Shown piece after piece: positions 23,241 to 33,438 of a DNA stretch of 38,582 bases. Location of the stretch: contig JAMOVG010000230.1 of the NCBI GenBank assembly GCA_027061725.1, positions 1 through 38,582 on the forward strand, written 5' to 3'. The number at the start of each line of letters is the position of its first letter. The stretch's first letter is position 1. This stretch comes from Desulfobacteraceae bacterium (GTDB taxonomy: Bacteria; Desulfobacterota; Desulfobacteria; Desulfobacterales; JALSRD01). The notes under the pieces were generated by a model. The model worked only from the letters and a program-made list of their open reading frames with translations. It did not search any database and was not told the origin of the DNA. The translations under genes were made by a program, and so were the position numbers.

Positions 23241-23430
23241 AAAGCAGCAGACCGAGATACGGTTTTCAGCATCCCGGAACACGGTGAAAATCCGTGGCGG
23301 ACCCGCCGCTGTGATCGGGGATGGTAACCTGCTTCAGGCGTAACGCCGGCCACTTCCGGAGCCGACTCCGGGGGGAAGGCTGCAGGTTGCCAGTTGATCC
23401 GAGAGCCAGAAGACCTGCTGATAACCGTAA
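23241..23430 (+). promoter_or_regulatory. Cobalamin (B12) riboswitch aptamer
   Basis: The conserved core can be read in order: GGAACACGGTGAAAATCC, GCGGACCCGCCGCTGTGA, GGGGA, the B12-box-like GGCCACTTCC, GGGGGAAGG, and GAGAGCCAGAAGACCTGCTG. CAGCAG (23245-23250) pairs with CTGCTG (23415-23420) as the closing P1 helix. The box reads GCCACTTCC rather than the common GCCACTG, a small deviation. An intrinsic terminator follows, so binding of a cobamide should stop transcription of the TrpD-like gene. Confidence 0.92.
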
Positions 23431-23451
23431 AGGGGTGTAGGATGGCAAACG

Positions 23452-23494
23452 AAGCCCGGTTCGGCTCCATGGGGAGCCGATGCGGGCTTTTTTT
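23452..23494 (+). terminator. Intrinsic terminator, riboswitch expression platform
   Basis: AAGCCCG (23452-23458) pairs with CGGGCTT (23483-23489), enclosing TCGGCTCC (23461-23468) paired with GGAGCCGA (23473-23480) around an ATGG loop. Seven T residues follow (23488-23494). It sits between the aptamer and the gene start at 23538, so it is the OFF element rather than a gene-end terminator. Confidence 0.9.
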
Positions 23495-23537
23495 ATTGGC
23501 AGGCCCCATGAACGCGAAACCATCAAGGGAGGCGGCG

Positions 23538-24650
23538 ATGCTCACGGATGAAGACCGAAAATTTGGCGGCTACATAGCGCGGGTGATTCAGAAGGCAGAT
23601 CTGACGCGGGAGGAGGCCCGGGAGGCCTTTACCGCGGTCATTGCAGAACAGACCACCGAGATGCAGCAAGGCGCCCTGCTGGCGGCCCTGACCGCCAAGG
23701 GGGAAACAGCGCATGAGGTGGCCGGCGCCTGGGAGGCCATCTATGACCTGGACACCCGCCGGATATCGATCGACGATCCAGACGATCTGGTGGAAAACAG
23801 CGGGACGGGTATGGACACCTTCAAGACCTTCAATATCAGCACCGCCGCTTCGGTGTTGGCCGCCGCCGGCGGCATCCGGATGGCCCGGCACGGGGCGAGG
23901 GCCATCACCTCGGTTTGCGGGACAGTGGACATGGCCGAGGCCCTGGGCGTGGACGTGGAGTGTCCGGTGGAGACCGTGGCGGCCAGCATCCGCAAGTCCC
24001 GCATCGGACTGTTCAACGGCATGAGCGCCCAGGTGCACCCCCGCGCGTTGGGACGTATTCTTTCCCGCATCGCCTTCGGTTCGACCCTCAACATCGCGGC
24101 CTCGCTGGCCAACCCGGTAATGCCCCCCCTGGCGGTGAGGGGCGTGTATGACAGGGAGCAGATTCTGCCGGTGGCCCAGGTGATGAAAGCCGTGGGATAT
24201 CGGCGGGCGGTCGTTCTTCACGGCACCATCGACCATTCTACCTGCGGTATGGATGAGGCCTCGGTGTGCGGCACCACCTATTGCGCGGAACTCGAACCGC
24301 ACGGCGGCATTCGTGAATATTCCTTCAGGCCTGAAGATTTCGGCCTTTCCGTCTGGGCCCCTGACCCGCTTTCACCGTCCGGTGATGTCGCCTGTGAGGC
24401 AGGCAGACTGATTGACCTGCTTCGGGGGAATCTCGAAGGGGCCCGGCTGCACGCCGTTTTGTTGAACGCCGGGCTCGTGTTCTACGTGGCAAACCGTGCC
24501 GCGAACATTACCGAGGGCATTGCGCAGGCCGCGGCAAGCATCTCCAGCGGGGCGGCCTGGAAAACGCTGGAAGAGTGGGTCGCATCGCAGAATCGAAACC
24601 CCCGGCAAGGCCTCGAACGGCTGCGCTCGGCAGCGGCTTCCCGTCAATGA
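23538..24650 (+). CDS. TrpD-like phosphoribosyltransferase, B12-riboswitch controlled
   Basis: A 370-residue paralogue of anthranilate phosphoribosyltransferase. The N-terminal helical domain (about 10-75) precedes the PRPP-binding loop GTGMDTFKTFNIST (89-102; TrpD has GTGGD), RHGARAITSVCGTVD (117-131; TrpD KHGNRxxSSxxGSAD), VHPRALGRILSR (167-178), SLANP and the Mg-binding GMDEAS (237-242). PRPP and metal sites are thus mostly kept, while the aromatic-acceptor region (GLFNGMSAQVHPRA, GSTLNIAASLANP) differs from TrpD. No other trp genes are near, so anthranilate is unlikely; the acceptor is unknown. ATG 23538 is chosen: it lies after the riboswitch terminator and follows GGGAGG. The stop overlaps the next ATG (ATGA). 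Confidence 0.8.
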   Translation: MLTDEDRKFGGYIARVIQKADLTREEAREAFTAVIAEQTTEMQQGALLAALTAKGETAHEVAGAWEAIYDLDTRRISIDDPDDLVENSGTGMDTFKTFNISTAASVLAAAGGIRMARHGARAITSVCGTVDMAEALGVDVECPVETVAASIRKSRIGLFNGMSAQVHPRALGRILSRIAFGSTLNIAASLANPVMPPLAVRGVYDREQILPVAQVMKAVGYRRAVVLHGTIDHSTCGMDEASVCGTTYCAELEPHGGIREYSFRPEDFGLSVWAPDPLSPSGDVACEAGRLIDLLRGNLEGARLHAVLLNAGLVFYVANRAANITEGIAQAAASISSGAAWKTLEEWVASQNRNPRQGLERLRSAAASRQ

Positions 24651-24886
24651 AGGCCAAGGAGGACGGCATCGTGGAGTTGCTGGTGTTAAAGTGCGGCGGG
24701 GATTACTTCCGCGAAAAAGACGGTGGGTTTATCCGGTGTAGCCTGGACAAGGCCAGCGTGTACCGCCCGGCGCAGGCGCAAGAGGCCAGGAAACACGTGG
24801 CTGTCCTAAAGGCGCAGGGGTTTGCCGATGCGTGCATCCGGTTGCTGAGATTGACCGAGGAACCCTATCCCGGGGACGTCGCGTAA
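24647..24886 (+). CDS. Small 79-residue protein of unknown function
   Basis: No family recognised. Its ATG overlaps the stop of the TrpD-like gene by 4 bp, the classical sign of translational coupling, and it ends 30 nt before the alcohol dehydrogenase ATG, so it is very likely a real gene. The protein opens with a beta-rich stretch (GIVELLVLKCGGDYFREKDGGFIRCSLDKASVY) and ends with a helical segment (AQEARKHVAVLKAQGF, then IRLLRLTEEPYPGD). There is no signal peptide or membrane helix. Two cysteines (C16, C31) and no metal motif are seen. It may be an accessory subunit for the phosphoribosyltransferase or dehydrogenase; this is inference from position only. Confidence 0.65.
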   Translation: MKAKEDGIVELLVLKCGGDYFREKDGGFIRCSLDKASVYRPAQAQEARKHVAVLKAQGFADACIRLLRLTEEPYPGDVA

Positions 24887-24916
24887 AACACGACAGCGCG
24901 AGAGGAGATAGATGCA

Positions 24917-25930
24917 ATGCGATTGGTGCTCACCGGCCTGCAGCGCCTGCGCGTCATGGATGACGATCCGCCGGCGGAGCGGCCGGGCTTTGTGCGGCTG
25001 CGGGTGCTTTACTGCGGCATATGCCGAACCGACGCCAAAATGTGGAAGGAGGGGCACCGGGACCTGGTATTGCCCCGTGTACCGGGGCACGAGTTTGTGG
25101 GTGCCGATGAACACCGCAATCGTTTTGTGGTCTGGCCGGGGGATGTATGCGGACGATGCCGTTTCTGCCGGGGTGGACGGGAAAACCTGTGCGAGAACAT
25201 GCGCATCATCGGGTTTCACCGGGACGGCGGGTTCGCCCGGTACGCCCTGGTGCCGAAAGGCAGCCTGGTGCCTCTGCCACAGGGGGTTGCCCTTCCGCTG
25301 GCGTGCCTGGCGGAGCCCGCCGGCTGCGCCTGGCACGCGCTGCATCGGCTGCATGCCCGCAAAGGAATGCGGATGCTGATCTATGGCGGCGGAACCCTTG
25401 GTGTGCTGGCCGCCCTGGTGGGCCGCTGCTGGGGGGTGGTGCCGCTGGTAGTTGAGACAAGCACCGGTAAAATCCGGAAAATCCGCCCCATTCTCACGGC
25501 CGCGGGCATCCGGTGCGTGCAGCGGCCCCGCGAAGGCGGATTCGACCTGGCGCTGAATGCATGTGCGGACGCCGAAGCCTGGCGGCAGTGCGTGGAACGA
25601 CTGGCAAGCGGCGGAAGGCTGTGCTATTTCAGCGGGCTGGATAAAAGCGCACAGGTGCCGGCCGGGGTGTTGAACATTTTGCACTACCGCGAGATAGATC
25701 TTCTGGGATCGTATGGACTGCAGCGCGGGGACATGTCGGCCGCCCTGGACCTGATTGCCGGGCAGGCGAGCCTTTTTGAGAAACTGATCGAAGGCGTCAT
25801 CTCGCCCGAGGAGGCGCCCGGGCGCCTGGCCGATGTCCTCAGAGGGCATTCGCTGCGCTATCTGCTCGATTTTGCAAATTGGAAGCGCCCCGTTCCGGAT
25901 CCCGACACGGAAAATGCGGCTGCCGTCTGA
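24917..25930 (+). CDS. Zinc-dependent medium-chain alcohol/polyol dehydrogenase
   Basis: A 337-residue MDR-family enzyme. Catalytic zinc residues are expected at C36 (CGICRTD), H58-E59 (GHEF) and E133. The structural zinc lobe is complete with C78, C81, C84 and C92. The NAD(P) fold carries YGGGTLGVLAALV (about 155-167). These features place it with sorbitol, threonine and inosose-type dehydrogenases, which oxidise secondary alcohols. AGAGGAG precedes the ATG. As third gene of the riboswitch operon it should be expressed when B12 is scarce, and may act on the product or precursor of the TrpD-like enzyme. Its TGA directly abuts the stop of the convergent SDR gene, leaving no intergenic base. 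Confidence 0.85.
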   Translation: MRLVLTGLQRLRVMDDDPPAERPGFVRLRVLYCGICRTDAKMWKEGHRDLVLPRVPGHEFVGADEHRNRFVVWPGDVCGRCRFCRGGRENLCENMRIIGFHRDGGFARYALVPKGSLVPLPQGVALPLACLAEPAGCAWHALHRLHARKGMRMLIYGGGTLGVLAALVGRCWGVVPLVVETSTGKIRKIRPILTAAGIRCVQRPREGGFDLALNACADAEAWRQCVERLASGGRLCYFSGLDKSAQVPAGVLNILHYREIDLLGSYGLQRGDMSAALDLIAGQASLFEKLIEGVISPEEAPGRLADVLRGHSLRYLLDFANWKRPVPDPDTENAAAV

Positions 25931-26707
25931 TCAGATGGCCGCCAGGTAGCCGCCGTCGATGGTAATCATCTGGCCGGTGATGTATGCCGCCGCCGGGCTG
26001 CACAGAAAGACGGTGGCGCCGATGAGGTCCTGGACATGCCCGAAGCGGCCCAGGGGAATCTTGGCGTTCATGTCCTCGGCCCATTGTCGGTCCTGGAAGA
26101 AGACATCGGTCATGCGGGTGCGGAAATAGCCCGGTGCGATGGCGTTGACCCGGATTCCGAAGCGCGCCCACTCGGCGGCCAGGGCGCGGGTCATGCCCAG
26201 CAGGCCGCTTTTGCTGCTGGTGTAGGGGACGGCCGTGGGCACACCTACGCTGGAAGTCAGCGAGCAGACGTTGACCATGGCGCCGCCGGTGTCCGTCATG
26301 TGACGCGCCGCGGCCTGGGCGCAGAAAAAGGCGCCCCGCAGGTTGGTGTCCAGGATAGCGTCCCAGCGCTCCGGTGAAACCTCCAGGGAATCGCACACGC
26401 TTTCGAAGCCGGCGTTGTTGACCAGGATGTCCAGGCCCCCCATCCGCTCGGCGCAGGCCGCGAGCCCTGCCCGGATGTTTTCGACATCGGTGACGTCCAG
26501 GGCCTGGATGACGGCCGAGCCGCCGATGTCTTTTATTTCCTCGGCCGTGTCGGCCAGCGTGTCGGCATGTCGGCCGGTGACCGCCACCACGGCACCGGCA
26601 TGGGCCAGACCCAGGGCCAGGGCGCGTCCGATGCCGCGGGAGGCGCCGGTGACCAGGGCTTTGCGGCCCCTGAGGTGAAACTCGGGAAACGCAATCGGCG
26701 GTTTCAT
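25931..26707 (-). CDS. Short-chain dehydrogenase/reductase (gluconate 5-dehydrogenase-like)
   Basis: A 258-residue classical SDR. TGASRGIG (20-27) binds the cofactor, NNAG (97-100) is the structural motif, and S149, Y162 and K166 (PYTSSKSG) form the active site; PGYFRT and the C-terminal ITGQMITIDGGY are typical. An arginine after the glycine motif (GRHAD) suggests NADP preference. The nearest named relatives by motif are gluconate and 3-oxoacyl reductases, but the substrate is open. It is the last gene of the operon that starts with the HisD-like gene, 69 nt after the tandem HisB-like gene; GAGGAAAA serves as ribosome site. Confidence 0.88.
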   Translation of the reverse strand: MKPPIAFPEFHLRGRKALVTGASRGIGRALALGLAHAGAVVAVTGRHADTLADTAEEIKDIGGSAVIQALDVTDVENIRAGLAACAERMGGLDILVNNAGFESVCDSLEVSPERWDAILDTNLRGAFFCAQAAARHMTDTGGAMVNVCSLTSSVGVPTAVPYTSSKSGLLGMTRALAAEWARFGIRVNAIAPGYFRTRMTDVFFQDRQWAEDMNAKIPLGRFGHVQDLIGATVFLCSPAAAYITGQMITIDGGYLAAI

Positions 26708-26776
26708 GGTTTTCCTCCGCTTGTAGTGAGCCGTTACGGCCCGGCGAGGTTTGGAAGATTCCGGGTCGTTGGCGTT

Positions 26777-28033
26777 TCAGGACAGGTTGGCCTTGACCCC
26801 CGGCGGCAGGCCTCGGCGATAGGGGTTGACCTCGAAAACCGCTCGCAGGGCCTCTCCCAGGCGCTCGAAAATCATGGTCCAGGCCTGCTCGGGGGGCGGC
26901 AGCCGCCTGATATGCACCACGAGGCTGCAGCCCAGGCCCCAGGACAGACCGTCCAGAAAATCGTCCAGGTCCTCGGAGTAAAGCCCGCCGAATACCGTGT
27001 GGCCGATGACCAGCCGCCGTTTCAGGGTTTCGGAATCCGAATCCAGGGGAACGAAACGCCAGAATTTGCGTCCCTCCACGCTGACGCCTACCCGGATGTC
27101 CTGCGTTTCCAGGTCCTCCGGCCGCTGCAGGCTGCTTCCGGCGCCATTGACGCCAACGGCCCTCATGCGTTGAACCAGCACTTCGTGAAGGGCCCGGCCC
27201 ACGACCATGCCCGTGTCTTCCAGCAGCACGTGGCTGGATACCAGGCGTCGGCACCGAAAGACCGCCTGCAGCGAAAAGCCCCCCCTGTCGGCCAGCAACC
27301 GCAGCAGATCCTGCAGGCCCGCCAATGCGCCGGACGGCACGCTGTGTTTGCCGGGCGGCTCCTCCAGCCGGAACGAAAAGGGGCGGTCATCCCGGAAATC
27401 GATCGTCGCCGAAAGTTCGCTTTCAGCCGTCCGGCGGGTAATTTCACACCGATGGGCCGAGTGGGCGACGATGGTGACGGCGTCGCCGGGAGTTCCGCTT
27501 TCAACGGCAGATGGGATTTCCGCCGGTCGGACCGGCGGTGTGAACAGCCGTGAAAGGGCCGTGCCGACCCCCCGGAAGATCCCCTCCCAGGTGTGGTGGG
27601 GATCTTCGAAAGTGCACACCAGAATGCGGATTTCGGCGCCCATCCCCTCGGATAATCCCTGCAGCAGCTCCACCAGGGGCTGCCCGGAGGGCAGTTGCTC
27701 GCAGCGTGATGCCAGAAACCATTGCCGGTCGACGGGGGCGGCGGAGCGAAGTTCCAGCCGCGGTCCGGCGTCCAGCCGGACGAGCACCTCGGCACTGCCG
27801 TCGTCGATCATGCCCAGGGCCGCAGCAGCGGTCTTGCGGGCCGTAAAAGACCGGATACGGGTCCCCAGGGCGCGCCCCAGCAGAGACCAGTTTTTGTCCG
27901 CCCACCGCAGATCGATGGCGCACCCCATGCGCCAGGCGATGTGCTCCACCATGTGGCTGACGAAGTCGTTGGGTGTCTGCAACCGCTTGGCCTGCACGTC
28001 ACCGAAGGCCATTTGGAGTCGGGGAGCGCTCAT
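26777..28033 (-). CDS. Tandem, degenerate HisB-like (imidazoleglycerol-phosphate dehydratase fold) protein
   Basis: A 418-residue protein that reads as two complete IGPD folds in series; bacterial IGPD domains are about 190 residues. Copy 1 (about 1-170) has FVSHMVEHIA (24-33, like FFDHMLExIA), lacks the first HHxxE (WADKNWSLLGRAL instead), but keeps the second, DPHHTWEG (144-151). Copy 2 (about 195-418) lacks the HML motif (AGLQDLLRLLA), keeps a partial first metal motif SSHVLLEDTG (266-275), lacks the second (EQAWTMIFE, 382-390), and ends with NPYRRGLPPGVKANL like the IGPD C-terminus. Losses in the two copies are largely complementary. The start overlaps the upstream permease stop by 4 bp, tying it to the importer. 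The function is not known; ordinary histidine synthesis is unlikely. Confidence 0.65.
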   Translation of the reverse strand: MSAPRLQMAFGDVQAKRLQTPNDFVSHMVEHIAWRMGCAIDLRWADKNWSLLGRALGTRIRSFTARKTAAAALGMIDDGSAEVLVRLDAGPRLELRSAAPVDRQWFLASRCEQLPSGQPLVELLQGLSEGMGAEIRILVCTFEDPHHTWEGIFRGVGTALSRLFTPPVRPAEIPSAVESGTPGDAVTIVAHSAHRCEITRRTAESELSATIDFRDDRPFSFRLEEPPGKHSVPSGALAGLQDLLRLLADRGGFSLQAVFRCRRLVSSHVLLEDTGMVVGRALHEVLVQRMRAVGVNGAGSSLQRPEDLETQDIRVGVSVEGRKFWRFVPLDSDSETLKRRLVIGHTVFGGLYSEDLDDFLDGLSWGLGCSLVVHIRRLPPPEQAWTMIFERLGEALRAVFEVNPYRRGLPPGVKANLS

Positions 28034-28830
28034 TTCGATCGCAAAAACAGTTCCAGGCCCACCAGCCGGTCCAGCAGCCACACGGCCACGAAGGCGATTA
28101 CGATGTAGACCACCGATACGGCCGCCAGGTCGGGCGTGATGACGCTGCGGATGGAATTGTAGATGGACACCGGCAGGGTGACGATGCGCGCGTCGGTCAG
28201 GAACAGGCTCACCAGGAACTCGTTAAAGGCCAGGATGAACATCAGCAGTGCGCCGGTGATGACCCCGGGCATGACGGCCGGCAGGGTCACGGTCAGAAAG
28301 GCCTGCAACGGCGGCGCGCCGCAGTTGGCGGCGGCGTTTTCCAGGTCCGGGTCCAGGGCGTTGACCGTCGCGCTGACCGCCCAGATCATGAAAGGCAGGT
28401 TGATGACGCACAGGGCCACACCCACGGGCCACAGTTGCCCCAGGATACGGATCTCGCCGAAGATGATCATCATGCCCAGTCCCGACACCACCAGCGGGAT
28501 GGTGAAGGGCAGCAGCAGGTAGACCTGCAGCGCGGTGCGGAAGCGTATGCGGTAACGCGCCAGGGCAATGGCCGCCAGGGTTCCGGACGGTATGCTGATC
28601 AGGGTGCAGATGACGGAGACGTAGACCGTGCGCAGGAAAGCGGCCTTGAAGTCTTCCAGCAGCCACAGTTTGCCGTACCATTTCAGGGAAAAGCCGTCCG
28701 GGGGGAACTGGACGATGTTGCCCGAAGTGAAAGAGGCGCCCAGGATGATGATGGTCGGAAGGCTCAGGGTGATCAGGTTGAACCAAACCACAGACCACAG
28801 CACGGCTGTTTTGCTTCGTGAACCCGTCAT
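28030..28830 (-). CDS. ABC transporter permease, PotC type
   Basis: A 266-residue inner-membrane permease with six predicted helices. The EAA loop is DLENAAANCGAPPLQAFLTVTLPAV, where the ATPase docks, followed by GALLMFILAFNEFLVSLFL, typical of spermidine/putrescine-type (CUT1/POPT) systems. It overlaps both the PotB-type permease upstream and the HisB-like gene downstream by 4 bp (ATGA), so all three are translationally coupled. The substrate is decided by the binding protein and is not known. Confidence 0.9.
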   Translation of the reverse strand: MTGSRSKTAVLWSVVWFNLITLSLPTIIILGASFTSGNIVQFPPDGFSLKWYGKLWLLEDFKAAFLRTVYVSVICTLISIPSGTLAAIALARYRIRFRTALQVYLLLPFTIPLVVSGLGMMIIFGEIRILGQLWPVGVALCVINLPFMIWAVSATVNALDPDLENAAANCGAPPLQAFLTVTLPAVMPGVITGALLMFILAFNEFLVSLFLTDARIVTLPVSIYNSIRSVITPDLAAVSVVYIVIAFVAVWLLDRLVGLELFLRSK

Positions 28831-29774
28831 CGGACGTTCTCCCTGGACACCAGTGTGCCGGTGCCGGCCAGGCTGAAAAGCACGGTGACGAAGACGCTTC
28901 CAAGCGTCACCAGAATCATGGAGAGCGCCGATCCCAGGCCGGGGTTGGATAGCTGGAAAAAACCGTCATAGATGGAATTGGCAATGAAGTCGGTGGTGCC
29001 GCCCCCCAGGATTTCCGGCATGGCGAAATCGGTCAGGGTCAGGGTGAAGACCACCACCGCCGATCCCACCAGTCCCGGTTTGGCCAGCGGAATGACCACG
29101 TGGCGAAAGGTTTTCACCCAGTTGGCGCCCAGGCTTTCCGAGGCCAGTTCGATTTCCTCGCCGATAGCCGTGATGGCCGGGGCGATGAGCAGCACGGCGA
29201 AGGGCAGCATGTACTGGACCAGTCCCAGCACCACCGCCGGGTAGTTGTAGATCAGCTTGATCGGCGGCAGGCCCAGGGAAGCCAGCAGGGTGTTGAGCAG
29301 GCCCTCCTTGCCCAGGATAATCAGCCACCCGTAGGCCCGCACCACCTGTCCGATGAAGAAAGGCAGAAAAAGGCTGATGAGCAGAAACTTGCGGGTGCCC
29401 GACGACCGCGCGCGCACCATAACGTAGGCGTATGGGAAAGCCAGCACCGTGGTGATGGCGGTGACGATAAACGAGGCCCCCAGACTGCGCAGCACCACGG
29501 TGCGATACGTCGCGCTTTTCAGGGCGACATGATAGTTGACCAGGCTGAACGCATCCTTGAGCCGGTAAGTGGCCAGATCCAGTTCGTGCAGGCTGTAGTC
29601 GAAGATGTAGACCAGCCCGATGACCAGCACGAACACCAGCAGCAGCGCCGGTAACAGCAGCAGGTATCCGGTGAGCGGGGACCAGCGCCGCGGCCACAGC
29701 GCCGCCACGTTCTCGGCGTGGTCCAGGATGCGCCAGGAAAGCGGATATTTGAATGCCGGTTTATCGGAAGACAT
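28827..29774 (-). CDS. ABC transporter permease, PotB type
   Basis: A 315-residue permease, partner of the PotC-type subunit. A cytoplasmic N-terminus of about 45 residues precedes a first helix (YLLLLPALLLVFVLVIGLVYIF). The EAA motif is ELASESLGANWVKTFRHVVIPLAKPG, and six or so helices follow the POPT pattern. The ATG at 29774 (MSSDKPAFKYP) is chosen because earlier in-frame codons run into the binding-protein gene. It begins 53 nt after the binding-protein stop. Together with its neighbours it forms a complete ABC importer. Confidence 0.9.
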   Translation of the reverse strand: MSSDKPAFKYPLSWRILDHAENVAALWPRRWSPLTGYLLLLPALLLVFVLVIGLVYIFDYSLHELDLATYRLKDAFSLVNYHVALKSATYRTVVLRSLGASFIVTAITTVLAFPYAYVMVRARSSGTRKFLLISLFLPFFIGQVVRAYGWLIILGKEGLLNTLLASLGLPPIKLIYNYPAVVLGLVQYMLPFAVLLIAPAITAIGEEIELASESLGANWVKTFRHVVIPLAKPGLVGSAVVVFTLTLTDFAMPEILGGGTTDFIANSIYDGFFQLSNPGLGSALSMILVTLGSVFVTVLFSLAGTGTLVSRENVR

Positions 29775-29827
29775 GGCGATCGGACGCGGGCACCCGGCAG
29801 GATCCGCCCGCCGGGTGCCCGGCGCGG

Positions 29828-30934
29828 TTATCCCTGGAAGATCTCGTTGAACTTGGCGAACCACTTGGGCTGATTTTCCACCAGCACCTTGGACGGAATG
29901 CGCAACAGGTTCTTGAAATCCTCGGGTCGGGTCGGGTAAGCCACGTCGCCCACCAGGTCCGGCGGCGGCTTGATGCCCGGATAGACCGGCGGCAGGCCCA
30001 GCATGGAGCACCATTTCTGCTGGGCTTCCTTGGTCAGGGCGTGGTTGACGAACTGCTTGGCCCAGTATTCCTCATTGGGCGGCAGGCCCTTGGGCACCCA
30101 CAGGCCGTCGGTATCGACCTTGCAGCCCTCCTTGGGAACGGTCCAGGATACCTTGATGCCTTTTTGCTTGGCGGCGCGGGCGTTGACGCTGATGGTGCAG
30201 GCCACGTCGATTTCGCCGTTCTGGAACCAGTTGGTAAAGTCGGCGTCCTCACCCAGCAACGGCTTGTTCTTCTTCAACTTGCGGTAGAACTGCCAGGCCG
30301 GCTCCATGTTGTTCGGGATGTCCTTGCGCGTGCCGCCGCCCACGAGCACCGCCACCGGGGTGAAGCCGATGCCGTCGTCGTAGAGCGCGATGCGGCCCTT
30401 GAATTTGGGGTCGATGAGCACGTTCCAGGATTTGGGCGGACCATCGGGGAAAGCCTCGGGGCGGTAGGCGCAGACGTAGACATAGGCGTAGGTGTTGACC
30501 AGCGGGTAGCCCTTGAGGCCGATGGGTTTGGCCAGCGGGAGCAGCCCCTTGAGATTGGAGAGGTCACTGAGGTCGACCGTCACGCCGCGCAGGGCGGAAA
30601 TGGTGGCGTTGGTGGTCGTGTCCCAGTTGACGTGGATAGGCGGAACGCGCCCCTGGTCCACGGCCGCCCAGATCTTGGGCTTGATCTCGTTGTCTTCGGT
30701 GAAATCCAGGCGCACCTTGATGCCGGTGGCGGCGGTAAATCCGTCGGCCACGCCGGCTTTCAGGGCTTCTCCCCAGGCGCCGCCCCAGGCCCGTACAATG
30801 ATTTCCTTGGGCTTTTTGGGGGTGGAGGCAAAGACCAGTCCGGGAGCGATGAGGGCGCCGCCCACCATCGCCGCCGAACCGGTCAGGAATTGGCGCCGAC
30901 TGAGTTTCTGGCCGGAATTTTGCTTTCTGGTCAT
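29828..30934 (-). CDS. ABC transporter substrate-binding protein, PotD type, Tat-exported
   Basis: A 368-residue periplasmic binding protein. It has a twin-arginine signal (SRRQFLTG, residues 12-19, then a hydrophobic stretch to about 37), so it is probably exported folded by Tat. The mature part has the extracellular-binding family 1/8 layout: EIIVRAWGGAWGEALKAG, NWDTTTNATISALRG, YPLVNTYAYVY, SWNVLIDPKFKGRIALYDDG, DFTNWFQNGEIDVA. It is related to PotD, but substrate specificity cannot be inferred, and the polyamine label should be read as family only. The ATG 30934 follows GGAAAGGAG; an earlier start at 30958 has no such site. Confidence 0.9.
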   Translation of the reverse strand: MTRKQNSGQKLSRRQFLTGSAAMVGGALIAPGLVFASTPKKPKEIIVRAWGGAWGEALKAGVADGFTAATGIKVRLDFTEDNEIKPKIWAAVDQGRVPPIHVNWDTTTNATISALRGVTVDLSDLSNLKGLLPLAKPIGLKGYPLVNTYAYVYVCAYRPEAFPDGPPKSWNVLIDPKFKGRIALYDDGIGFTPVAVLVGGGTRKDIPNNMEPAWQFYRKLKKNKPLLGEDADFTNWFQNGEIDVACTISVNARAAKQKGIKVSWTVPKEGCKVDTDGLWVPKGLPPNEEYWAKQFVNHALTKEAQQKWCSMLGLPPVYPGIKPPPDLVGDVAYPTRPEDFKNLLRIPSKVLVENQPKWFAKFNEIFQG

Positions 30935-30963
30935 GAATTTCTCCTTTCCGTTGGACAAGGGGT

Positions 30964-32082
<1,119 letters not shown>

Positions 32083-32115
32083 TGTTTCGTTATTTCCCGG
32101 ATCGGTTGAAGAGGT

Positions 32116-33438
32116 TCAGGACATCAGCTTTTTGCGCAAAGCAGAAACGGCCAGGGCGTGGCCGTCGAACCCCTCGTAAACGGCCAGCCGGTGCGCGTTC
32201 TCGGCCAGTTGATCGTAGGCGCCGGCGGTAACATACCCGATGCCCGTGGTTTTGAGGAAGTCGTGCACACACAACGGCGAGTGCGTGCGTGCGGCGCCCG
32301 AAGTCGGCAGCACGGCATTGGGCCCCAGCAGATAGTTGCCCAGCGTCAGCGGCGTGTGCCGGCCCAGCAGGATTTCGCCGGCGTGCTGGACGGCGCCAAG
32401 ATGCTGGAAAGGCTCATCACTGTGGATCATGAGGTGTTCGGGGGCGTAATCGTTGATGAACGCGATCGCCTCCTGCGTGTCCGCCGCCAGCACGATGCCG
32501 CCCCGGGGGCCGCACAGCACGGTCTGCGAAAAGGTGCGCCGGGTCTCCCCAAGGGATTCCCAGTAGGACGGAATGGCTTCCCGCGCCTGCTCCGCAATGC
32601 GCCTGCTGGGGGTTACCAGAAAAGCCGAGGAGTCCGGCCCGTGTTCGGATTCGATGATCAGGTCCAGGGCGGCCAGGCGGCCGTCGGCCGAGTCGTCGGC
32701 GAAAATGATGGACTCGCTGGGGCCGGCCGGAGTGCCGGGATCGATCTTGTCGGCCAGCAGCCGCTTGGCGGCCACCACCCAGGGACTGCCGGGTCCTACG
32801 ATCTTATCGGCCCTGGGGATCGTCTCTGTGCCGTATGCCGCGGCCGCCACCGCCTGGGCGCCGCCGCACTTGTAGACCTCCTCGACACCGGCATGGCGGG
32901 CTGCCACCAGGGTGGCGTCATCCACGCGGCCGTCGGGCCCCGGCGGGGTGAGCACGTACACCCGCGGTACGCCGGCCACCACCGCCGGGATGGTGGTCAT
33001 CAGCACCACGCTGGGAAAGGCGCCCTTGCCGCGCGGCACGTAGCAGGCCACCGACGGGATGGGGGTCACCTTTTCGCCGCAGAACACGCCCGGGCGGGTT
33101 TCGTTGAGCCGCATGGGTTCGGGCATCTGGCCGCGGTGGAACCGGCGGATGCTTTCGGCCGCAAAAGCGATGGCCTCCAGCAGTTCGGGCGCCAGGGCCG
33201 CTGAAGCTGCTTCGAAATCTGCGGGGTGTGCGCGGATGCTGTCGGCCGTAATGGCCGCCTTGTCCAGATCACGGGCGAAGCGTACCAGTGCCCGGTCTCC
33301 CTCATCTCTGACCGCTTTTACGATGGAAGTGACCGGCTCCAGGTAGCGATCCAGGTCGCTCTCGGTCCGCCGCAGCAGTTCGGTTTTTTCGTCTTGCGAA
33401 AGTCGGGTCAAATCGTGGAGTCGAACCTCAAAAGTCAT
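32116..33438 (-). CDS. Histidinol dehydrogenase-family protein, HpsN-like candidate
   Basis: A 440-residue NAD-dependent dehydrogenase of the HisD family. The catalytic pair E334-H335 (YAPEHL, E. coli E326/H327) and the zinc ligand H427 (compare H419) are kept. Two other zinc-ligand positions differ: Gln259 is E263 (ESEHG) and Asp360 is N368 (TLGNYLLGPNAVLPT). Such divergent HisD homologues include HpsN, which oxidises 2,3-dihydroxypropanesulfonate to sulfolactate, and others acting on unknown diols or amino alcohols. As first gene of an operon with an importer, a catabolic role is more likely than histidine synthesis, since no his genes are near. The substrate is open. AGGGGCGAAG precedes the ATG. 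Confidence 0.8.
   Translation of the reverse strand: MTFEVRLHDLTRLSQDEKTELLRRTESDLDRYLEPVTSIVKAVRDEGDRALVRFARDLDKAAITADSIRAHPADFEAASAALAPELLEAIAFAAESIRRFHRGQMPEPMRLNETRPGVFCGEKVTPIPSVACYVPRGKGAFPSVVLMTTIPAVVAGVPRVYVLTPPGPDGRVDDATLVAARHAGVEEVYKCGGAQAVAAAAYGTETIPRADKIVGPGSPWVVAAKRLLADKIDPGTPAGPSESIIFADDSADGRLAALDLIIESEHGPDSSAFLVTPSRRIAEQAREAIPSYWESLGETRRTFSQTVLCGPRGGIVLAADTQEAIAFINDYAPEHLMIHSDEPFQHLGAVQHAGEILLGRHTPLTLGNYLLGPNAVLPTSGAARTHSPLCVHDFLKTTGIGYVTAGAYDQLAENAHRLAVYEGFDGHALAVSALRKKLMS

Follow-up and report, generated by a model that had tools for sequence, protein, structure and literature searches.

Which organisms are able to use a particular cobamide depends on its lower ligand, and only a few routes are known by which that ligand is made or activated, namely BluB, Bza, ArsAB, and purine salvage. 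In design, the nearest precedent for the genes described here is the BluB-CobT2 fusion of Propionibacterium freudenreichii, which supplies 5,6-dimethylbenzimidazole (DMB) to CobT, the enzyme that activates the lower ligand (PMC4657239). The window analyzed here, by which we mean the whole stretch of 38,582 nucleotides from contig JAMOVG010000230.1 of a Desulfobacteraceae bacterium (assembly GCA_027061725.1), contains a cobalamin riboswitch and an intrinsic terminator followed, in this order, by genes for a TrpD paralogue, a small protein, and a zinc dehydrogenase (Table 1). An earlier reading made from the letters alone, referred to below as the original prediction, had drawn attention to these genes; what it missed is a CobT domain in the relatives of the third gene, and this domain holds the key to what the operon does. 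The gene set recurs as a module in several phyla of anaerobes, which probably use it for a so far undescribed step in building B12-type cofactors. A role in the assembly of the cobamide nucleotide loop is likely, and a B12-repressed accessory module of that assembly is, taken as a whole, the explanation toward which we lean.

That a conserved and putatively B12-repressed set of genes is fused to CobT suggests that many sulfate reducers and acetogens, and possibly some methanogens, have a step still missing from the known routes. The cultured carriers include Desulfospira joergensenii, Desulforhopalus singaporensis, Acetobacterium fimetarium, and Eubacterium callanderi. Searches of a library of openly licensed papers gave no description of a TrpD homologue in cobamide synthesis, and the one co-mention examined was unrelated.

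Table 1. Features of the riboswitch-led operon, in positions of the window
Feature	Position	Strand	Remarks
Cobalamin riboswitch aptamer (RF00174)	23250..23436	+	cmscan
Intrinsic terminator, likely expression platform	23451..23496	+	hairpin of two 8-bp stems, then U-run
TrpD-like phosphoribosyltransferase of the module clade, 370 aa	23538..24650	+	from ATG to stop; Glycos_transf_3/3N domains
Small conserved protein, 79 aa	24647..24886	+	ATG overlaps trpD stop (ATGA)
Zinc-dependent medium-chain dehydrogenase, 337 aa	24917..25930	+	ADH_N; no CobT domain

The riboswitch and the TrpD-like enzyme

The aptamer aligns to the full RF00174 model (positions 1-189) with 75.6 bits (E = 4.8e-17), far above the gathering score of 31.5. 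The terminator hairpin (23451-23490) with its U-run folds at -31.3 kcal/mol (z = -4.4), and none of 200 shuffled sequences was as stable, while a simple consensus scan did not have this terminator among its output. To judge from these elements, corrinoid would turn the genes off through the terminator.

A genome scan turned up 80 loci with close relatives of the TrpD-like gene. Whole-genome surveys covered 58 relatives and selected carriers, and 13 of the 58 genomes of the order, the window's own counted, carry the gene. The pair of TrpD-like gene and dehydrogenase occurs in Desulfobacterota, Bacillota, Kiritimatiellota, Fermentibacterota, Bacteroidota, and Methanomassiliicoccales, with the dehydrogenase accompanying the TrpD-like gene in nearly all loci, archaea included. 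By Rfam search, a cobalamin riboswitch lies 5' of the TrpD-like gene, or of the dehydrogenase where that gene leads the unit, in 34 of 45 loci. The positive loci are the window, most Desulfobacterota, all nine Bacillota and Kiritimatiellota, and one from Fermentibacterota, and the batches behind the count are the window, 16 of 20, the 9 of 9 just named, four, and four. The 11 negative loci comprise three with truncated 5' sequence, four from Methanomassiliicoccales, which have the same pair with no riboswitch detected, and L042, L060, L066, and L090. A simple B12-box search agrees with the Rfam result (58 of 90 strong). At L090 (7153-11476), the TrpD-like gene stands between two cupin-like genes and a BtuF/BtuC/BtuD-like run, and neither a dehydrogenase nor a riboswitch was detected there. 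Other kept neighbors, read from their translations, are sensor kinases, glutamate dehydrogenase, and EamA-type transporters; we set them aside as partners of the module, as they look like lineage synteny.

Just 5' of its start codon the TrpD-like gene has the ribosome-binding-site-like AAGGGAGG. In profile searches the protein matches Glycos_transf_3 with 160.8 bits, together with the 3N domain, and it scores 244.9 on TIGR01245 (trpD, cut-off 199), so that automatic annotation would label it TrpD. Its sequence identity is 64% to the same-genus copy and 47-65% to most orthologues, and 31-37% to the TrpDs of the same order. Phylogenetic analysis of 44 proteins from the module together with 26 TrpDs, canonical and other, puts the module proteins in one clade apart from all the others (Shimodaira-Hasegawa-like approximate likelihood ratio test, SH-aLRT, 100). 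The motifs for phosphoribosyl pyrophosphate (PRPP) and magnesium, that is, the GTGxD loop, NIST, HGxR, and the DE metal pair, are kept in the clade, with GTGxD, NIST, and DE at 94-100%, and GTGMD in place of GTGGD is invariant.

A comparison of 86 aligned clade sequences with canonical TrpDs of the same order revealed a long series of residues that are specific to the clade at 100%: Q43, D71-T72, N86, M91, K95, T128, F158-N159-G160, S162, P167, L170, L174, G180, L183, S188, A190, R200, and W346, among which L174 and G180, in the acceptor region, are both Arg in canonical TrpDs. An Arg of the TrpD acceptor region is known from TrpD structures to bind the carboxylate of anthranilate. At the position of Leu174, which every aligned member of the module clade has, 10 of 11 canonical TrpDs carry Arg. 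With both acceptor-region Arg lost, the acceptor of the TrpD-like enzyme is, judging from the alignment, probably not anthranilate, and the TrpD name that the clade receives by its score is probably wrong.

The genome of the window organism has three genes of the TrpD family. One of them belongs to a trp operon on a different contig (C202, L109), where trpE, trpG, trpD, and trpA were read from the translations. A further paralogue without trp context lies on contig C76 (L110:1243-2322) and has close relatives in genomes G009 and G017.

What the original prediction observed is confirmed in every point, the 79-residue protein and the zinc dehydrogenase behind the TrpD paralogue included. The full cobalamin aptamer and terminator ahead of a TrpD paralogue are both there, the aptamer scoring above the threshold of its family; a TrpD-family enzyme recurs downstream of B12 riboswitches and is supported as a real target of theirs; and the PRPP and magnesium motifs, GTGMD for GTGGD, and the altered acceptor region are all seen in the alignment. 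The prediction had also considered that the protein might fall inside canonical TrpD with a complete trp operon missing elsewhere; it falls outside, and a trp operon is present on C202.

The dehydrogenase, CobT, and the small protein

The catalytic residues C36, H58, E59, and E133 of the dehydrogenase are conserved, as are the structural C78, C81, C84, and C92 and the GxGxxG motif for NAD. The window copy ends in a short C-terminal tail where its relatives run on into CobT. Such dehydrogenase-CobT fusions occur in about 40 loci and are the rule in most Desulfobacterota. The fused CobT is a full domain with LGEG and GEMGIGNT preserved, and it matches CobTs of solved structure with E values of 1e-70. 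Residues 80, 88, and 175 of the CobT are Tyr or Phe, Met, and Met, mostly like those of the engineered ArsA-like SeCobT, a variant that we take to be entry 4kqj. We tried these residues as a guide to CobT specificity and found them not decisive, since Phe/Met/Met is also present in Bza-adjacent CobTs and the three positions therefore do not show phenolic specificity. At a Salinivirgaceae locus (L066:8001-12353), the dehydrogenase-CobT fusion is followed by a second CobT in an ArsAB-like layout, and a third CobT in the same genome adjoins CobS. At L080 (genome G094), the TrpD-like gene and the small protein occur without a dehydrogenase on the contig, and a CobT frame of the size of the fusion is present on a different contig; the association may persist even where the genes are not adjacent.

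The partnership is not restricted to fusions. The unfused order dehydrogenase-TrpD-CobT occurs at five loci (L010, L011, L014, L015, and L094). In genome G013 (L184), a cobU-cobS-cobD-cbiB-cbiR run is followed by riboswitch-dehydrogenase-TrpD-CobT and then by a second cobalamin riboswitch, and in Kiritimatiellia (L093, L100) the riboswitch-dehydrogenase-TrpD unit adjoins CobU, CobT, and CobS. Both CobT and CobS are present in 12 of the 13 module genomes among the relatives. The fusion to or adjacency of CobT and the clustering with cobU, cobS, cobD, cbiB, and cbiR are the main evidence for placing the module in nucleotide-loop assembly.

The small protein has no match in Pfam or NCBIfam. It is predicted to fold as beta-beta-beta-alpha-beta (AlphaFold2 pLDDT, the predicted local confidence, 92), and a fold search with it gave no convincing match (best Foldseek E = 0.63; best Z = 3.8). 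Its relatives, of 66-90 residues, keep a KASV(F/Y) core and lie directly 3' of the TrpD-like gene; they are found at this position in most Desulfobacterota loci and in Fermentibacterota, Bacteroidota, and Bacillota, L062 and L066 among them.

Several results weigh against an accessory module of nucleotide-loop assembly. Neither CobT, CobS, nor corrin methylases were found by profile searches in the genome of the window organism itself (G000; 4.07 Mb, 410 contigs, 97.6% complete). Among the 58 relatives, the co-occurrence of the module with CobT or with CobS is not significant (p = 0.16 and 0.43, respectively), which is due to most of these genomes having CobT and CobS anyway. A sister pair of zinc dehydrogenase and TrpD-like protein, the latter with GTGSD, occurs in genomes G011 and G050 (L180:6348-8453 and L181:6796-8861) with no cobalamin riboswitch or CobT nearby, which suggests that the two form a functional unit of their own, not tied to the riboswitch module. 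Finally, Eubacterium callanderi has bzaAB as well as the module, and several Desulfobacterota have the module together with BzaF-like genes; the two do not exclude each other, which makes it unclear which base the module would make.

This coexistence also means that the module is no plain substitute for the Bza pathway. We rejected replacement of Bza as a simple rule, both for the case of E. callanderi, which carries both, and because the module and BzaF-like genes are independent among the CobT-bearing relatives (4 of 12 vs 13 of 32, p = 0.74), where the BzaF-like label denotes a score class plus, for some, adjacency to CobT, and where the 4 of 12 may be 3 of 12 since the copy in G016 (L205) bears more resemblance to ThiC.

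Proposed mechanism and alternatives

Our tentative proposal for the chemistry is an undescribed anaerobic route, found in at least four bacterial phyla under B12-riboswitch control, in which a TrpD-derived phosphoribosyltransferase, a zinc dehydrogenase, and a small subunit build from PRPP the base or ribotide that CobT uses. When corrinoid is plentiful, the aptamer would let the terminator form and the genes would be off. When it is scarce, the TrpD-like enzyme would move phosphoribose from PRPP to an aromatic acceptor other than anthranilate, and the NAD-dependent dehydrogenase would carry out a redox step on what is made or on a precursor of it, with the small protein as a subunit. CobT would then receive the resulting lower-ligand base, or a ribotide that yields one, much as BluB-CobT2 passes on DMB. 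The original prediction had suggested that the enzyme may modify a B12-related precursor, with which the CobT and cob gene partners agree. It had also cautioned that TrpD, which forms a beta-glycoside, is no obvious replacement for CobT, and this fits the presence of CobT, usually fused, in most carriers: the final alpha linkage would come from CobT itself.

The window organism bears on how far this proposal applies to the operon at hand. Its genome gave no match to the ThiC/BzaF family (PF01964). Its only two tetrapyrrole-methylase genes read, in translation, as a 509-aa CobA/HemD-like frame by a MoaA-like gene and a likely 16S rRNA methylase. Contig C57 (L107) carries, again by reading of translations, a CbiK-type chelatase, BtuF, BtuC, and BtuD, as well as BtuB behind another cobalamin riboswitch. 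The organism is apparently a corrinoid importer, or the cob cluster is absent from the assembly. The same-genus genome G001 has a fused CobT, and CobS in a cluster reading as cbi/cob genes, and no ThiC-family gene. A third cobalamin riboswitch of the window genome (L108:3421-3625, contig C363) lies ahead of an outer-membrane-porin-like gene, which is not a known B12 gene.

Among other explanations, an ordinary TrpD of tryptophan synthesis that chances to stand behind a riboswitch is hardly credible: the score beyond the TIGR01245 cut-off speaks for it, and it is contradicted by the separate trp operon, the separate clade, acceptor-region residues altered in all 86 aligned sequences, and a riboswitch association found again in four phyla. 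B12 riboswitches are known to control B12-independent isozymes used when B12 is short, for example metE and nrdDG, and the original prediction had offered a bypass of a B12-requiring step. The bypass finds no support and is very improbable, for no B12-dependent counterpart reaction matches a PRPP transfer and the partners of the module are genes that build the cobamide, none of them B12-dependent isozymes. More closely related to our proposal is a replacement of CobT, with the TrpD-like enzyme and the dehydrogenase making a beta-ribotide from PRPP and epimerizing it at C1' by way of a 2'-keto intermediate, which would give CobS the alpha-ribotide it needs. It would suit the window genome, which has no CobT, and the Methanomassiliicoccales with the pair, which have CobS and no PF02277 CobT. 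We regard it as quite improbable, given that CobT is fused to or beside the dehydrogenase in most carriers, that the window genome has no CobS either, and that some control archaea with CobS likewise gave no PF02277 match; the archaeal argument is weak because archaeal CobT may be divergent, of the MjCobT type (PMC9561151). The module could also supply the phosphoribosyl donor: the TrpD-like enzyme would join PRPP to a pyridine, either nicotinate or one related to it, and CobT would use the resulting beta-mononucleotide. Two inversions would then lead from alpha-PRPP to alpha-ribotide, and the pyridine set free would be recycled. This is chemically attractive. It makes use of CobT as the recurrent partner with canonical motifs, it is in keeping with TrpD and nicotinate phosphoribosyltransferases both taking PRPP and an aromatic acceptor, it settles the stereochemical problem raised above, and it is compatible with Bza-containing genomes. 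We still consider it unlikely: it appears weakened by the lost acceptor-region Arg, which disfavors a carboxylated acceptor such as nicotinate, it leaves no clear job for the dehydrogenase, and nicotinate mononucleotide is normally available from NAD synthesis.

The remaining alternative concerns the window copy and is compatible with a nucleotide-loop module as the explanation for the family. Without CobT, CobS, and corrin methylases in its genome, the module here may be a remnant or CobT-independent. In the former case, the operon would be what is left in a corrinoid importer that has neither de novo synthesis nor the CobT domain and has kept the old riboswitch, and the Btu genes around another riboswitch, the short tail of the dehydrogenase where relatives enter CobT, and the presence of the fusion and CobS in G001 are all consistent with that. 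We find it possible and somewhat doubtful. Every clade-invariant residue is kept, the coding sequences look intact, the branch length of 0.38 equals that of the intact G001 copy, in line with the same rate of evolution, and unfused dehydrogenases also occur in genomes with CobT. It is further weakened by the clustering of CobS with other cob genes in G001, since a single missing contig could explain much of the absence.

Next to the operon, the window carries on the opposite strand (25931-33438, -) a short-chain dehydrogenase/reductase, an imidazoleglycerol-phosphate dehydratase-like protein (PF00475, apparently two domains), PotA/B/C-type ATP-binding cassette genes, and an enzyme of the histidinol-dehydrogenase family (PF00815, 453 bits); this run is perhaps a catabolic operon unrelated to histidine synthesis.

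Comparison with described systems

With ArsAB, which serves phenol and p-cresol, the module shares a specialized activation of the base by CobT homologues, and the tandem CobTs of L066 recall it; to our knowledge, ArsAB has no TrpD or dehydrogenase partner. The Bza pathway (BzaAB or BzaF and BzaCDE with CobT) is likewise an anaerobic supply of the lower ligand tied to CobT, whereas the module has no ThiC-family or methyltransferase gene, and G000 and G001 are without any ThiC-family gene. From TrpD (TIGR01245, PF00591/PF02885), the TrpD-like enzyme has the family and the GTGxD, NIST, HGxR, and DE motifs in common, but it belongs to a separate clade with GTGMD and with the acceptor Arg changed to Leu and Gly, and it is encoded outside the trp operon under a B12 riboswitch. 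The closest likeness in design is to BluB-CobT2, where, as in the dehydrogenase-CobT fusion, an upstream enzyme is joined to CobT for supply of the lower ligand. BluB, however, cleaves flavin and uses oxygen, whereas the partner of CobT in the module is a zinc dehydrogenase that goes together with a PRPP transferase, and most of the carriers are anaerobes.

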